Assembly: GCF_000372825.1 (NCBI RefSeq) | Contig: NZ_KB910516.1 | Coordinates: 3,825,825-3,889,824, forward strand | DNA length: 64,000 bases | Reading direction: 5' to 3' | Origin: Methylobacterium sp. 77 | GTDB lineage: Bacteria > Pseudomonadota > Alphaproteobacteria > Rhizobiales > Beijerinckiaceae | Part shown: positions 58,999-63,326 of the stretch, piece after piece | Layout: every line of letters starts with the position of its first letter | How positions within the stretch are numbered: the stretch's first letter is position 1 | Made by a program: the position numbers and the translations under genes | Notes under the pieces: generated by a model | The model's database searches: none | The model's input: the letters and a program-made list of their open reading frames with translations, nothing else | What the model was told of the DNA's origin: nothing

Positions 58999-59597
58999 AC
59001 CCGCGCGGCCGCCTCCTCTTCGCGACCCTCTTCGGTCTGGTCCTGGCGGGACTGGTCCATATCGCCGTGGTGCTGGCGATCCCGAGCCTGTCGGAATCCG
59101 ATGCCCTGACCAAGGCCCGGACCAGCGAGACCCTCGACCACGCGATGCCGGTCTACACCCTGTCCACCGGGATCAATCCGGCCCCCGCCGAGGCGTGGCT
59201 CCCGATCCCCGACCCCTCCGTGGCGGTGGGCATCTGTGCCTACAATCTGGCCGACGGCCCGATGCGGGTCTCGGCCCGGACCGGGGCGCTCATGCTGTCG
59301 CTGGCGGTCCACGGACGACGCGGAGCCTTCTATGCCGTCACCGATCAGGCGGCGGTGCGCGGCGCCCTCGATCTCGTGATCCTCACCCGCGCTCAATATG
59401 ACGAGGCGCTGGCCAACGAGGACGAGAACGACGTGAGTCGCGACGTGCGCATCGTCGCCACCGAGCGGGAGGGTTTCGTCGTGGCCCGCGTGGTCGCGGC
59501 CCTGCCGAGCCAGCGGCAGGCGGCGAACGAGGCGGTCCAGGCCGTCTCCTGCACCATCGACAGCCCGACCGAGGACGCTGCGAAATCCGGCGGCTGA
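58995..59597 (+). CDS. DUF1254 envelope protein
   Basis: The 200-residue protein starts with a membrane helix (LLFATLFGLVLAGLVHIAVVL) and has the DUF1254-like region HAMPVYTLSTGINPAPAEAW and the strand set FYAVTDQAAVRGALDLVILT. It is translationally coupled to the DUF1214 gene. The ATG at 58995 overlaps the previous stop; an ATG three codons earlier is possible. The split pair probably acts together at the inner membrane. A structured element follows the stop directly. Confidence 0.85.
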   Translation: MNPRGRLLFATLFGLVLAGLVHIAVVLAIPSLSESDALTKARTSETLDHAMPVYTLSTGINPAPAEAWLPIPDPSVAVGICAYNLADGPMRVSARTGALMLSLAVHGRRGAFYAVTDQAAVRGALDLVILTRAQYDEALANEDENDVSRDVRIVATEREGFVVARVVAALPSQRQAANEAVQAVSCTIDSPTEDAAKSGG

Positions 59598-59650
59598 TAC
59601 CGGGTCTCCACCGAGACTGAGCCATGGTTCAGGCTCATCGAGGTCCGGTA
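59598..59650. repeat. Three-way inverted repeat after the DUF1254 gene
   Basis: TACCGG at 59598-59603 pairs with CCGGTA at 59645-59650. Inside lie two smaller stems, GTCTC/GAGAC (59604-59617) and GAGCC/GGCTC (59619-59636). The result is a potential three-way junction between two convergent genes, starting right at a stop codon. There is no T-tract. It may be a factor-dependent terminator or a REP-like element. Confidence 0.45.
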
Positions 59651-59670
59651 GGGCGGCCGAGACGCGCCCG

Positions 59671-60486
59671 TCAGTATTTCGCGACGATGGGCAGCGCGGC
59701 CTGGGGAGCCGGTGCTTCCACCAGGCCGCAGCGGGCTTCGGCTTCCAGCGGGAGCAGCGGATCGAGCATCGCCCGGCGGCCATCCAGCGCCGCGAGGCTG
59801 CGCTCGGCCGACACGGCCTCCGTGGAGGGAACCTCGATGAGCAGGTGCTGCAGCGCGTAGCGGTAGCGTTCCGAGCGCACGCCCGTTTCCAGCCGGACCC
59901 AAGCGACGAGGCAGCGGTTCTCGGCCACGCGCATGGCGGCCTGGCGGATGTTCTCGTCGTCGAGGGTCTTCACGAAGGGCAGGCTGCGCAGGCGCAGGCT
60001 ATCGGCCTCCGCCACCCGCGCCGCCGTCGCGACGAAGAGCGGGATCAGGCGCGCATCCACGGTGATGTCGTCCGAGAGACGGCGATAGCGCGAGACCGGC
60101 GAGCGGAAGGGCTCTGCAATCAGCGCTGCGTGGTAGGTGGTGACGTCGTCGTCGCGCCAATTCGGCGGCAGCACGCGGGTGCGGGTGAGGTTGGCCAGCG
60201 CGTCGGTGAAGGCCTCGCGCTCGGCGGCCGGCATCAGGAACCGCCAGGACCGGTCGCGCAGGGTGCGTTCGTCATCGGTGAAGGGAAAATAGGAGGCCGG
60301 CGCATTGCGATAGCGCGCGGCCACGGTGCCGGTGGTCGCGACGAGGCTGTTCCAGGCACTCGGGGCCGGTCGCCCGAAATCGCCTTCCTGAGCGCACGCA
60401 CCCAGCAGGAGCAGGAGCGAGGCGGCGGTCGACGCGGTCCGGACCACGCGCCCGGTCGGGCTGACGGTATGGGACGCCGGCATCAC
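59671..60486 (-). CDS. Predicted lipoprotein, unknown function
   Basis: The 271-residue product has a signal peptide with a lipobox LLLLLGACAQ (lipidated Cys31) and a mainly helical mature domain. Notable segments are RSWRFLMPAAEREAFTDALA, FVKTLDDENIRQAAMRVAEN and RYALQHLLIEVPSTEAV. I recall no named domain. Many charged residues and two cysteines (CLVAW and CGLVE) are present. A periplasmic or outer-membrane location is expected. It is probably processed by the LspA encoded in this window. Confidence 0.82.
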   Translation of the reverse strand: MMPASHTVSPTGRVVRTASTAASLLLLLGACAQEGDFGRPAPSAWNSLVATTGTVAARYRNAPASYFPFTDDERTLRDRSWRFLMPAAEREAFTDALANLTRTRVLPPNWRDDDVTTYHAALIAEPFRSPVSRYRRLSDDITVDARLIPLFVATAARVAEADSLRLRSLPFVKTLDDENIRQAAMRVAENRCLVAWVRLETGVRSERYRYALQHLLIEVPSTEAVSAERSLAALDGRRAMLDPLLPLEAEARCGLVEAPAPQAALPIVAKY

Positions 60487-60555
60487 GCTTCCTTAAGTCT
60501 GCAAGAGCCTGTTCGATCTGCGAGAGCCTGTTCGGTCTCACGGATGTCCGAGGCG

Positions 60556-60732
60556 TCAGGACCGGCGGCGCTGGCGGGGAGCGGGCGCCGCAGGCTCCGG
60601 CATGCGCTCGTAGCGAACGCCCGTGAACAGCAGGATCGCGCCGCGGGCTGCTCCGCCATCCTCGTCGTCGCGCCGGAAGCGGCGGGCGGCGGGCTGCTGG
60701 AACGCCACGATGCTCGCCGTCGGGCGCGACAT
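60556..60732 (-). CDS. Small conserved protein with GAILLFTGVRYERM motif
   Basis: From the ATG at 60732 the frame encodes 58 residues with ASIVAFQQPAARRF near the start and the core ARGAILLFTGVRYERMPEP. I recall the -ILxFxGVRYER- pattern in small Hyphomicrobiales proteins, which supports this as a real gene; function is unknown. The frame is open further upstream with ATG at 60807 (83 residues) and beyond, so the start is uncertain. It lies 70 bp upstream of the lipoprotein gene on the same strand and may share its promoter. Confidence 0.6.
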   Translation of the reverse strand: MSRPTASIVAFQQPAARRFRRDDEDGGAARGAILLFTGVRYERMPEPAAPAPRQRRRS

Positions 60733-61067
60733 CGAACGGTCGCCCTGTCCGACCAGCGGCTCTCCGAGATGCGTCGTGGCACTATGGGACTTACGGTCAG
60801 GCGTCATCGCTGGCGATCCCATGGATCCTCGGTCTGCATCACCCGATCCGGCCGGAATCGTCCGCCTGAATCCCGTCGGGGCCCGGCCCCTTCGGTCTCT
60901 CAATCCATCGTGATGCAGGGGGAGATCATCACGGGGTGGTTAACGGAATGTTTCCGAGGTCCCGCGATTCGAGGGAAAGCGGAGGGGCTTTCGGTCGGAG
61001 AACCGGCCCACGTGACAAATCCGCCGCAACCGCGACGCCCATCGGATTCGGGGCGGGATACGGGCCC

Positions 61068-61083
61068 TGGCTTGCAACTTGCT
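61068..61083 (+). promoter_or_regulatory. Sigma-54 (-24/-12) promoter-like sequence
   Basis: TGGCTTG-CAAC-TTGCT matches the RpoN consensus TGGCACG-N4-TTGCW at all invariant positions (GG at 61069-61070 and GC at 61081-61082, 12 apart). Predicted transcription start is near 61094. No coding sequence follows for over 200 bp, but a strong terminator does at 61128-61159. Confidence 0.5.
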
Positions 61084-61093
61084 TGGTATTTCA

Positions 61094-61159
61094 CCGCCCA
61101 TGGCGGGCGTTTCCTCCCTTGCACTCGGCCCCGCTCACCGTTCGAGCGGGGCTTTTTTT
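61094..61159 (+). ncRNA. Candidate small RNA with anti-Shine-Dalgarno loop
   Basis: Between a sigma-54-like promoter and a strong intrinsic terminator lie about 66 bases with no coding potential. They fold as a first hairpin (CCGCC-CAT-GGCGG, 61094-61106), an unpaired TTTCCTCCCTTG (61111-61122) containing CCTCCC complementary to ribosome-binding sites, and the terminator hairpin. CCUCCC-bearing linkers are a hallmark of several alphaproteobacterial regulatory RNAs. The RNA could begin further upstream. The remainder of the 60904-61335 gap shows no gene. Confidence 0.5.
61128..61159 (+). terminator. Strong intrinsic terminator
   Basis: GCCCCGCTC at 61128-61136 pairs perfectly with GAGCGGGGC at 61144-61152 (9 bp, 7-base loop) and is followed by seven T. 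It is oriented on the plus strand. The nearest plus-strand gene upstream ends 1.5 kb away with two minus-strand genes in between, so it must end another transcript. Confidence 0.9.
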
Positions 61160-61335
61160 GCGGCCGCTCCCGCCGAAGGCAGTGGCAAGGGTGTGACCGA
61201 CGCGACACGCTCATGTGTCCGTGCATACGTCCGACGATGCCTGGCCGGAACCTCGGCGGCATCCCGCGCGCTTGCTAACCCATGGGTGCGCCCGATATGC
61301 CGCCTCAATCCGATCCGAGCGAAGGACAACGCAGA

Positions 61336-61647
61336 ATGCGCGTGGCGACGACACGATCCTCCAGCCCCTCGAAGGGCCTGTCCGTGGCCCTGAAAGCGGT
61401 ACCCTTCGCCCTTCTCCTCCTTGCAGCCGGCCCCGCTCAAGCCCAGCGTGAAGACCAGGGCCTGCAACTCGGCTGCGCCAACGATTATTTCCGGCTCTGC
61501 GCCGGCGTCGATCCCAACAGCCCCGATGCCGAGAAGTGCATGGAGCGCAACCGTCCCCGTCTCTCCGCCGAATGCCGCAACGCCATCGGCGATTACGACC
61601 GCCGCAGCGGCGGCAAGTCGCAGAAGCGCGGGTCCTCCGAGAACTGA
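61336..61647 (+). CDS. Small secreted cysteine-repeat protein
   Basis: The 103-residue product has a signal peptide (ALKAVPFALLLLAAGPAQAQ) and a mature domain with a cysteine repeat: LGCANDYFRLCAGVDPNSPD, then EKCMERNRPRLSAECRNAI. Four cysteines in this spacing match the short Cys-rich repeat seen in periplasmic proteins of alphaproteobacteria. The C-terminus is basic. Function is unknown. AAGGA lies 10 bases before the ATG. It follows the small RNA candidate by 176 bp. Confidence 0.8.
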   Translation: MRVATTRSSSPSKGLSVALKAVPFALLLLAAGPAQAQREDQGLQLGCANDYFRLCAGVDPNSPDAEKCMERNRPRLSAECRNAIGDYDRRSGGKSQKRGSSEN

Positions 61648-61654
61648 GACGCGT

Positions 61655-61683
61655 CCCGACGGGCTGGTCGCCGGTTCGTCGGG
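61655..61683 (+). terminator. Possible terminator after the cysteine-repeat gene
   Basis: CCCGACG at 61655-61661 pairs with CGTCGGG at 61677-61683 around a 15-base loop, just after the stop of the secreted protein gene. No T-run follows. Confidence 0.35.
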
Positions 61684-61801
61684 AATGAATGTGTGATGTT
61701 GGTTTCGAGCCGGATCAGATCTTCGGATCGATGCTATAGGCCCATGCTCCCGCAGCGATGGGCCGATCTCCGACCCGGACGATGAACGAGGCTCGTGCGC
61801 C

Positions 61802-62752
61802 ATGGCCCTGACCGTCGCGGTTCAGATGGACCCGATCCAGGCGATCAGGATCGCCGGTGACACCACCTTCGCCCTTCTCCTCGAGGCGCAGGCGCGGGGA
61901 CACGATCTGTTGTTCTACACGCCGGACCGGCTCTCGATGCAGGGACAGGTGGTGACGGCGCGGGTCGAGCCCCTCCGGGTTCAGGACGTGGAGGGCGCAC
62001 ACGCGACTCTCGGCGCCGTGGAGCGGGTCGATCTCGCCGATGTCGACGTGGTGCTGATGCGCCAGGACCCGCCCTTCGACATGGCCTACATCACCGCCAC
62101 CCACATGCTGGAGCGGATCCATCCGCGCACCCTCGTGGTGAACAACCCGGCCGAGGTTCGCAACGCGCCGGAGAAGCTGTTCGTCCTCGATTTCCCGCAG
62201 CTGATGCCGCCGACCCTGATCACCCGCGACAAGGCGGAGATCGAGGCGTTCCGGGCCGAGCACGGCGCCATCGTCATGAAGCCGCTCCACGGCCATGGCG
62301 GCGCGGCGGTGTTCCGGGTGCTGCCGGAGGACGCGAATTTCGGCTCGATGTTCGACCTGTTCTCGGTGACGTTCCGCGAGCCCTGGGTGGTCCAGCGCTT
62401 CCTTCCCAAGATCACCGAGGGCGACAAGCGCATCATCCTCGTCGACGGCGAGCCGATGGGCGCCATCAACCGCGTCCCGGCGCTGAACGACATCCGCTCC
62501 AACATGGTTCGCGGCGGCGCCGCCTCGCCGTCCGACCTCACCAAGCGCGAGCGCGAGATCTGCGCCACGATCGGCCCGGAATTGAAGCGTCGCGGCCTGA
62601 TCCTCGTCGGCATCGACGTGATCGACGGGAACCTCACCGAGATCAACGTCACCTCTCCCACGGGCATCCGCGCGATCAAGCGGCTCGGGGGGCCCGACCT
62701 CGCGGTCTCGGTCTGGGATGCGATCGAGGGGCGGATCGCCGCTTTGGCCTGA
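61802..62752 (+). CDS. gshB: Glutathione synthetase
   Basis: GshB joins gamma-glutamylcysteine and glycine with ATP. The 316-residue ATP-grasp protein starts [20 protein letters not shown], has [36 protein letters not shown], the ATP-grasp loop [15 protein letters not shown], and closes with [20 protein letters not shown]. Length and motifs are standard. The ATG at 61802 immediately precedes the first strand. gshA is not in the window. Confidence 0.97.
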
Positions 62753-62891
62753 TCAGATTCGGCCTGATCGAATTCGGCCCGATGCGATTAAGCCGCCTTT
62801 AAGCGCGGGTGCCTAACGATCGGGGCAGGTTTTCCCTGCCGCCAGCCCGGTCCGTCCCATCCATGAACCCGAATCCGCATTCCGGTCGGAC

Positions 62892-63326
62892 GTGCGGCCT
62901 CTGCCGGTGAGCACGCTCACCCTGCCGATGCGGCTCGCGCGGATGATCGTCGTGGGCGGGATCGCGACCGTGCTCTATGCCGGGTTGAGTCTGGCGGGAA
63001 CCACGGCGCTCGGCCTTCCCCTCACCCTGGCCTCGCCCCTGTCCTACGGGCTCGCGTCGATCTGGTCCTATGCGGGTCACCGCTGGCTGACCTTCGGCGA
63101 CAGGCAGCCGGCACGCCGGGCGGCCTTGCGATTCTCCGCATTGACGATCGCCGGCTACGGCGCGGCAGCGATCCTTCCCGCCATTGTCGGCGGGATGTTC
63201 GGCGGACCTCCCTGGCACTCGATCCTCACCGTCTGCGTCGCGGTTCCGGCCGTGAACTACGTGATATTGAGCCGGCACATTTTCATCGCGCCGGCACTGC
63301 CGCCGGGAGAGGGGCAGCCCGGATGA
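62892..63326 (+). CDS. GtrA-family membrane protein
   Basis: The 144-residue protein has four hydrophobic segments in the GtrA arrangement, starting ARMIVVGGIATVLYAGLSLAG and including YGLASIWSYAGHRWLTFGD. GtrA-like proteins help flip lipid-linked sugars or act with glycosyltransferases. The GTG at 62892 is the longest start; a GTG five codons on or an ATG at 62928 are possible. It overlaps the next gene by four bases (ATGA). Confidence 0.88.
   Translation: MRPLPVSTLTLPMRLARMIVVGGIATVLYAGLSLAGTTALGLPLTLASPLSYGLASIWSYAGHRWLTFGDRQPARRAALRFSALTIAGYGAAAILPAIVGGMFGGPPWHSILTVCVAVPAVNYVILSRHIFIAPALPPGEGQPG

Follow-up and report, generated by a model that had tools for sequence, protein, structure and literature searches.

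A divergent alphaR8 (MmgR/Sis) small RNA paralogue with a predicted sigma-54-type promoter conserved across Methylobacterium

Introduction

Does the free-standing terminator near the right end of a 64,000-nucleotide stretch of Methylobacterium sp. 77 DNA (hereafter the window; all positions are counted from its first letter) belong to a small RNA and, if so, to which RNA family and under which class of promoter? The original prediction, made from the letters alone, proposed a sigma-54-driven small RNA with an anti-Shine-Dalgarno linker. The locus leads to the alphaR8 family, whose RNAs have been described from all Alphaproteobacteria apart from Rickettsiales. A genome often holds several copies, and redundancy among these siblings has been named as an open question (PMC12559287).

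Results

Anatomy and family of the RNA

The observation behind the prediction is confirmed as real, with all of the described parts present:

61068..61083, plus strand: predicted sigma-54-type -24/-12 promoter, TGGC-N7-TTGCT (conserved in 81 of 81 genus loci)
61094..61159, plus strand: predicted alphaR8-type sRNA, 66 nt (RF00519 match and fold)
61095..61109, plus strand: 5' hairpin CGCCC-AUGGC-GGGCG, 5 bp (minimum free energy structure)
61110..61119, plus strand: anti-Shine-Dalgarno core UUUCCUCCCU (unpaired in the minimum free energy structure; the alphaR8 core according to PMC12559287)
61127..61159, plus strand: intrinsic terminator (stem 61127-61153 followed by a T run to 61159)

The computed fold of the 66-nt RNA runs from the hairpin through the unpaired linker to the terminator, as had been proposed, with an energy of −30.5 kcal/mol (z of −2.98) that was equalled in stability by 1 of 200 shuffles. 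The terminator is of the expected textbook kind, but its stem comprises 10 pairs, the final one being G-U, rather than the 9 first given. The gene layout also agrees with the prediction, with minus-strand genes to the left of the sRNA and the next plausible plus-strand gene start at 61282 or 61336, beyond the terminator. TGGC at 61068-61071 and TTGC at 61079-61082 form a GG-N10-GC in a TGGC...TTGC context, which again yields the predicted +1 at 61094.

The Rfam covariance search that had been suggested supplies what the prediction missed, namely membership of the alphaR8/MmgR family, while the small RNA with a sigma-54-type promoter and anti-Shine-Dalgarno linker stands as proposed. RF00519 (suhB/MmgR, alphaR8 family) matches 61089-61167 with 43.4 bits, which exceeds the cut-off of 41 by 2.4 bits, and the covariance model is covered at full length (model positions 1-77 of 77). 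This is the sole Rfam match at gathering score in the 64-kb window; five families matching below cut-off in 60900-61300 were ignored. Besides the score, the copy has the other marks of alphaR8, an unpaired 10-mer UUUCCUCCCU after a weak hairpin and a terminator directly after the core.

The genome of the window holds five RF00519 matches, two at 74.1 bits followed by the window copy at 43.4 and by matches at 38.8 and 29.1 bits, and the window copy is a divergent paralogue of the two 74-bit copies. We treated the 38.8-bit match, which keeps the core but has a weak terminator, as not a functional copy. The 29.1-bit match was taken as false, having no CCTCCC and lying directly after a putative hflX frame, which we take to be hflX from reading it by eye. 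An alphaR8-like stretch of the same genome (L004, 1501-1570) keeps hairpin and core with a poor terminator and is possibly decaying. All 99 genus genomes, and 87 of the 89 from the family, have at least one RF00519 match (E of 0.001 or better). Among 14 control genomes the RF00519 search gave matches in two, Caulobacter and Thermus composti, and one of these exceeded the cut-off.

Conservation of the -24/-12 element

With 61040-61180 as the DNA query, matches were obtained in 91 of the 111 genus genomes. This query contained the promoter and could therefore favour promoter-keeping loci, but in many matches only the RNA part was aligned (from query position 56). We read 90 loci, 30 returned by this search and 60 fetched, and 81 of them, from 81 genomes with that of the window included, hold the strict hairpin GCCC[AG]TGGCGGGC before CCTCCC. 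The anchor of the 81-locus set is thus the hairpin rather than the promoter. The nine loci left out have no strict hairpin: five (L075, L079, L080, L081, L084) carry variant hairpins in genomes that match the combined hairpin and promoter pattern, and in the remaining four (L105, L106, L112, L114) both the promoter pattern and the locus neighbours are lacking. Three genomes among the 91 (G042, G056, G104) are not in the locus set, and all three match the combined pattern.

GGC-N7-TTGC, and with it GG-N10-GC, lies upstream of the hairpin anchor in 81 of 81 loci. Its first G precedes the hairpin GCCC by 26 nt (53 loci), 27 nt (26) or 25 nt (2), so that the +1, a 5' end by prediction, falls 0-2 nt before the GCCC in every locus. 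The invariant columns are G-25, G-24, C-23, T-15, T-14, G-13 and C-12; T-26 is found in 80% of the loci, a pyrimidine (C or T) occupies -21 in 99% and a purine (A or G) occupies -20 in all, while outside -26 to -12 the highest column reaches 72%. GGCN7TTGC at the right distance occurred in 0.17% of 4050 composition-shuffled upstream sequences as against 81 of 81 real ones, and the stricter TGGCNYRN4TTGCW has one occurrence in the 64-kb window on both strands. The published sigma-54 consensus is TGGCACG-N4-TTGCW (quoted in PMC2573895 and PMC2245857), from which the window copy, reading TGGCTTG, departs by two mismatches. The comparison among Methylobacterium genomes that the prediction called for thus finds conservation in the genus. 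For the -24/-12 element the conservation is of the kind expected of a promoter, which supports the prediction of a sigma-54-type one.

The combined pattern was found in 97 of the 111 genus genomes, nine of them with a shorter hairpin, against 2 in the reversed control; a few of its extra matches are other alphaR8 copies or chance (in G019, G043, G076, G097, G103). The pattern is absent from 14 of the 111 (G041, G083, G099, G100, G102, G094, G012, G062, G105, G036, G108, G096, G060, G074), or from 13 if G074, with its shorter linker, is counted in, which brings the genomes with a recognised locus to 98. Eleven of these 14 genomes are of 6.5 Mb or more.

Conservation of the RNA body

The decamer UUUCCUCCCU is identical in 74 of the 81 loci, and hairpin, unpaired CCUCCC and terminator appear together in the minimum free energy fold of 77 of the 81 orthologues, the four others (L041, L116, L118, L122) folding without this three-part form. 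For covariation we aligned 45 of the 77 distinct RNA bodies. In these, 97.9% of cells pair, double-change cells number 42 compared to 9.9 in shuffles and at most 14 when the alignment is slid, and the covariation score is 0.252 compared to 0.129 in shuffles. Two of five covariation measures are not clearly above shuffles, as the 5 pairs with double changes were reached by 44 of 500 shuffles and the 13 further pair types by 126 of 500. Every compensatory change in the 45 sequences sits in the terminator, and the 5' hairpin, whose four GCCC/GGGC pairs are invariant there, gains no covariation support because its pairs never vary.

Comparison with sibling copies and alternative readings

As siblings we took 59 high-scoring alphaR8 copies, 32 from the genus and 27 from other genera of the family, and in this sample, which is biased in consisting of the best-scoring loci, GGCN7TTGC was found within 75 nt upstream of the hairpin in 0 of 59. 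What the siblings have is YGCR-N-YGCR, the core of the S. meliloti PhaR motif (PMC12542648), and this PhaR/AniA-like box is present in 57 of the 59 (32 of 32 in the genus and 25 of 27 elsewhere), with two or more YGCRNYGCR boxes within 75 nt upstream of the hairpin in 30 of the 59; in Methylobacterium the motif is the basis on which PhaR is named. For window-type copies the proportions are reversed, with GGCN7TTGC in 81 of 81 and a PhaR-like box in 9 of 81, close to the 5% seen in composition shuffles, and the window copy itself shows no YGCRNYGCR over the 75 nt that precede it. PhaR-like boxes before most usual alphaR8 copies (L001, L002, L006-L035, L250-L276) suggest that PhaR control of alphaR8 may extend well beyond Sinorhizobium. 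The two 74-bit copies of the same genome (L001, L002) share the hairpin-core-terminator plan of the window copy but, unlike it, have a TGCATTGCG (PhaR-like) box upstream and no GGCN7TTGC. L002 adjoins a putative N-formylglutamate amidohydrolase gene, recognised by eye. The usual alphaR8 place is beside an N-formylglutamate amidohydrolase gene (PMC12559287).

The contrast bears on an alternative that we regard as improbable, in which the RNA is transcribed from a sigma-70 promoter and GG-N10-GC is the binding site of a regulator, for example a PhaR-type TGC repeat. The usual copies do have TGC-rich regulator boxes near the start, some such dyads in other genera also read GG-N10-GC, and S. meliloti mmgR has been described with a sigma-70 promoter (PMC2573895). 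However, the letters that never vary in the window-type loci agree with the sigma-54 consensus, and their set spacing places the +1 at the predicted 5' end of the RNA. In the dyad copies of other genera the spacing is off by 4-8 nt. The PhaR-like box count of window-type copies also argues against it, as does a sigma-70 scan with a single E. coli-type consensus, which gave no plus-strand site in 59000-63000.

Two other readings keep the transcript and change its function. That it is a leader or attenuator of the downstream cysteine-rich and gshB genes, rather than a trans-acting RNA, would fit its fixed position upstream of these genes across the genus, but the family it belongs to by sequence match is one of trans-acting RNAs, its strong terminator lies 100 bases or more before the next start, and two Methylocapsa palsarum copies with the same arrangement sit at other places, so we consider a leader very improbable. 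In most orthologues the AUG in the hairpin loop follows closely on the predicted +1 and might open a short leaderless frame. This reading has next to no chance of being the explanation, since across the 81 orthologues such a frame would be anything between 7 and 100 or more codons long and would stop at no common point, and G025, G033, G061 and G109 have GCCCAAGGCGGGC with no AUG.

Synteny and spread outside the genus

Two neighbouring genes serve to mark the locus:

60556..60822, minus strand: divergent gene for a small protein, with an uncertain start codon (18 of 60 family genomes have homologues)
61802..62752, plus strand: gshB, glutathione synthetase, the locus marker (PF02955 and PF02951; synteny)

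Using the proteins of the divergent gene, the cysteine-rich gene, gshB and a lipoprotein-like gene, we found at least one of the four as a neighbour at 86 of the 90 loci, all 81 included, and all four in matching orientation at 65 of those 86. Judged by this synteny, one predicted alphaR8 paralogue is kept at the gshB locus across Methylobacterium and Methylorubrum.

In a collection of named genomes the hairpin and promoter together matched 86 stretches, 80 of them listed. Among the 80 listed, 71 lie in Methylobacterium, Methylorubrum or MAGs labelled Methylobacteriaceae or Beijerinckiaceae, each with a gshB-locus marker; seven, in unrelated bacteria, look like chance; and two, in Methylocapsa palsarum, have CGGCAC...TTTTGCTT before alphaR8 RNAs with no marker genes. 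The Methylocapsa palsarum elements (L214 at 4079, plus strand, and L232 at 1930, minus-strand numbering) are very good -24/-12 elements away from the gshB locus.

Family-wide, 44 of 298 genomes carry the pattern, and the genus accounts for 23 of these. Most of the apparent sigma-54 copies in other genera are dyads of the GGCAAC..GTTGC type, in which TTGC stands so near the hairpin (5-8 nt) that a sigma-54 start would fall inside the stem; we read these by eye as regulator dyads. The match in G724 seems to be due to chance, and in G519 the spacing is different. Genus-like spacing outside the genus was seen only in G688 (three copies) and Methylocapsa palsarum (two loci). Order-wide the pattern was found in 11 of 397 genomes, nine in the genus and two outside it, neither of which is convincing, as G160 looks like chance and the element before the alphaR8 copy of G375 is poor.

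Candidate activators and upstream elements

The genome of the window has one RpoN match and one Hfq match, together with six frames holding a strong Sigma54_activat domain. FlbD, NtrC and NtrX pass NCBIfam cut-offs, and the other three are two response regulators and one PAS protein; a GAFTGA-type loop is present in five of the six, the NtrX frame having none of the three variants sought. Two elements upstream of the promoter come into question:

61011..61028, no strand assigned: candidate activator-binding palindrome CGTGAC-N6-GCCGCA (phased upstream of -24)
60925..60950, minus strand: conserved ATCAKCACG...GGTTAACGG element (upstream of the divergent small gene)

The 18-bp palindrome YGTGRY-N6-RYCRCR, at 11-12 of 12 positions, is present in 22 of 81 loci, counted singly without a tree, compared to 3.0% in dinucleotide shuffles, a test that is partly circular because the motif was read off the same sequences. 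Twenty of these 22 loci, that of the window included, belong to one RNA subtype and hold the palindrome upstream of G-25 at two phased distances that differ by about two helical turns, 55-59 nt in 8 loci and 35-36 nt in 12. It is absent from 59 of the 81, seven loci of the same subtype together with the other subtypes, and alone it has 4 occurrences in the 64-kb window. Palindrome and sigma-54 pattern together have two matches in the genome (the sRNA locus and one other) against 1 in the control, so this search is uninformative on a regulon. The palindrome does not resemble the NtrC site, TGCACC-N5-GGTGCA, and for this reason NtrC and nitrogen cannot be claimed.

As an enhancer of the sRNA, the TGGTTAACGG element at 60925-60950 was rejected, because its distance to -24 is variable and a TTAACCA-type match (at most 2 substitutions) lies upstream of 8 of 15 divergent-gene homologues outside the genus; no alphaR8-like RNA was found at those 8 loci. 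From this distribution, the ATCAKCACG...GGTTAACGG element probably belongs to the divergent gene and not to the sRNA. It also explains the strongest dyad, CACG-N1-CGTG, which occurs in 11 of 35 non-redundant sequences and at most 3 in shuffles. The reverse complement of 60925-60950 holds GTTAACCA, which we take to be reminiscent of CtrA half-sites.

Discussion

We propose, with a probability of roughly 85%, that the window RNA is an alphaR8 (MmgR/Sis) paralogue whose promoter is of the sigma-54 class instead of the PhaR-boxed kind found in its siblings, which would make it an activator-gated anti-Shine-Dalgarno RNA. A genus-kept paralogue with this exchange of promoter follows from the element in 81 of 81 loci, its count of 0 in 59 siblings and the synteny of all 81 loci. 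RpoN polymerase would wait at 61068-61083 for a bacterial enhancer-binding protein, and once that protein was active the 66-nt RNA ending at 61159 would be made. With Hfq, its UUUCCUCCCU would pair with the Shine-Dalgarno regions of mRNAs and lower their translation, so that the outcome would be a sigma-54-gated input to a regulon common to the siblings. We infer the transcription, the Hfq binding, the targets, the activator and any nitrogen or carbon signal; an Hfq-dependent trans-acting RNA would be expected from the described relatives and the presence of the Hfq gene. Since the siblings have the same core, their targets would be expected to overlap with those of the window RNA, and what is new would lie in the input and not in the output.

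Among described RNAs the likeness is closest to the RF00519 relatives. MmgR of Sinorhizobium meliloti (Sm8/SmelC689, RF00519) has, like the window copy, a hairpin, an unpaired UUUCCUCCCU and a terminator, whereas the window copy differs in having a -24/-12 element and no PhaR-like box. MmgR is reported to be Hfq-dependent, linked to nitrogen and carbon status, activated by NtrC and repressed by AniA (PMC7143759, PMC8401924), and it limits PHB storage; repression by Shine-Dalgarno pairing has been suggested for this RNA (PMC8401924). Its promoter was predicted to be sigma-70 with a dyad between -35 and -10 (PMC2573895), while RpoN is also given for it in the table of one review (PMC7143759). 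SisA-D of Caulobacter crescentus (alphaR8) are several siblings with a common core and unrelated promoters, controlled by the sponge RNA CrfA, and Hfq-assisted pairing of the SisA core with Shine-Dalgarno regions, with repression, has been reported (PMC12559287); no sigma-54 promoter is mentioned for them, and 'RpoN' and 'sigma54' are absent from the text of that paper as available. NfeR1 (alphaR14) and the 'cuckoo' RNAs resemble the window RNA in having anti-Shine-Dalgarno CCUCC in unpaired regions (PMC10746234, PMC3927594). Unlike it, they are described with three or more hairpins each with CCUCCUCCC, and NfeR1 with a sigma-70 promoter. CrcZ/CrcY of Pseudomonas are small RNAs from sigma-54 promoters, as predicted for the window copy (PMC8401924). 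They sequester Hfq/Crc, unlike the proposed window RNA. To our knowledge, they are unrelated to it in sequence.

What is new, as far as we have seen, is the genus-wide change of promoter class, the RNA family itself being already known. No sigma-54 alphaR8 RNA in Methylobacterium appears in the titles and abstracts of the best-ranked literature matches, many subscription papers lying beyond reach. A start-site map of Methylorubrum extorquens DM4 exists (PMC9320726), and its main text, as available, does not contain 'sRNA', 'ncRNA', 'rpoN', 'sigma54' or 'suhB'. A promoter invariant in 81 of 81 genus loci sets one copy apart and makes a division of labour among siblings directly testable in laboratory methylotrophs.

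A wider reading, possible at somewhat under even odds, is that Methylobacterium has a dedicated sigma-54 arm of alphaR8 riboregulation in which an enhancer-binding protein (in part of the genus the reader of YGTGRY-N6-RYCRCR) replaced PhaR, giving one regulon with two inputs. If this is true, carbon storage would be read in by the siblings with their PhaR boxes, and the window copy would add a signal acting through sigma-54, be it nitrogen, C4-acids, motility or something else. The Methylocapsa palsarum promoters before alphaR8 copies at other loci suggest that the promoter swap happened more than once.

Two minor observations concern other genomes. The three alphaR8 copies of G688 are similar to those of Methylocapsa palsarum. 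An expansion of alphaR8-like RNAs was seen in G062 (8.8 Mb), with 30 RF00519 matches compared to 2-23 in the other 98 genomes.
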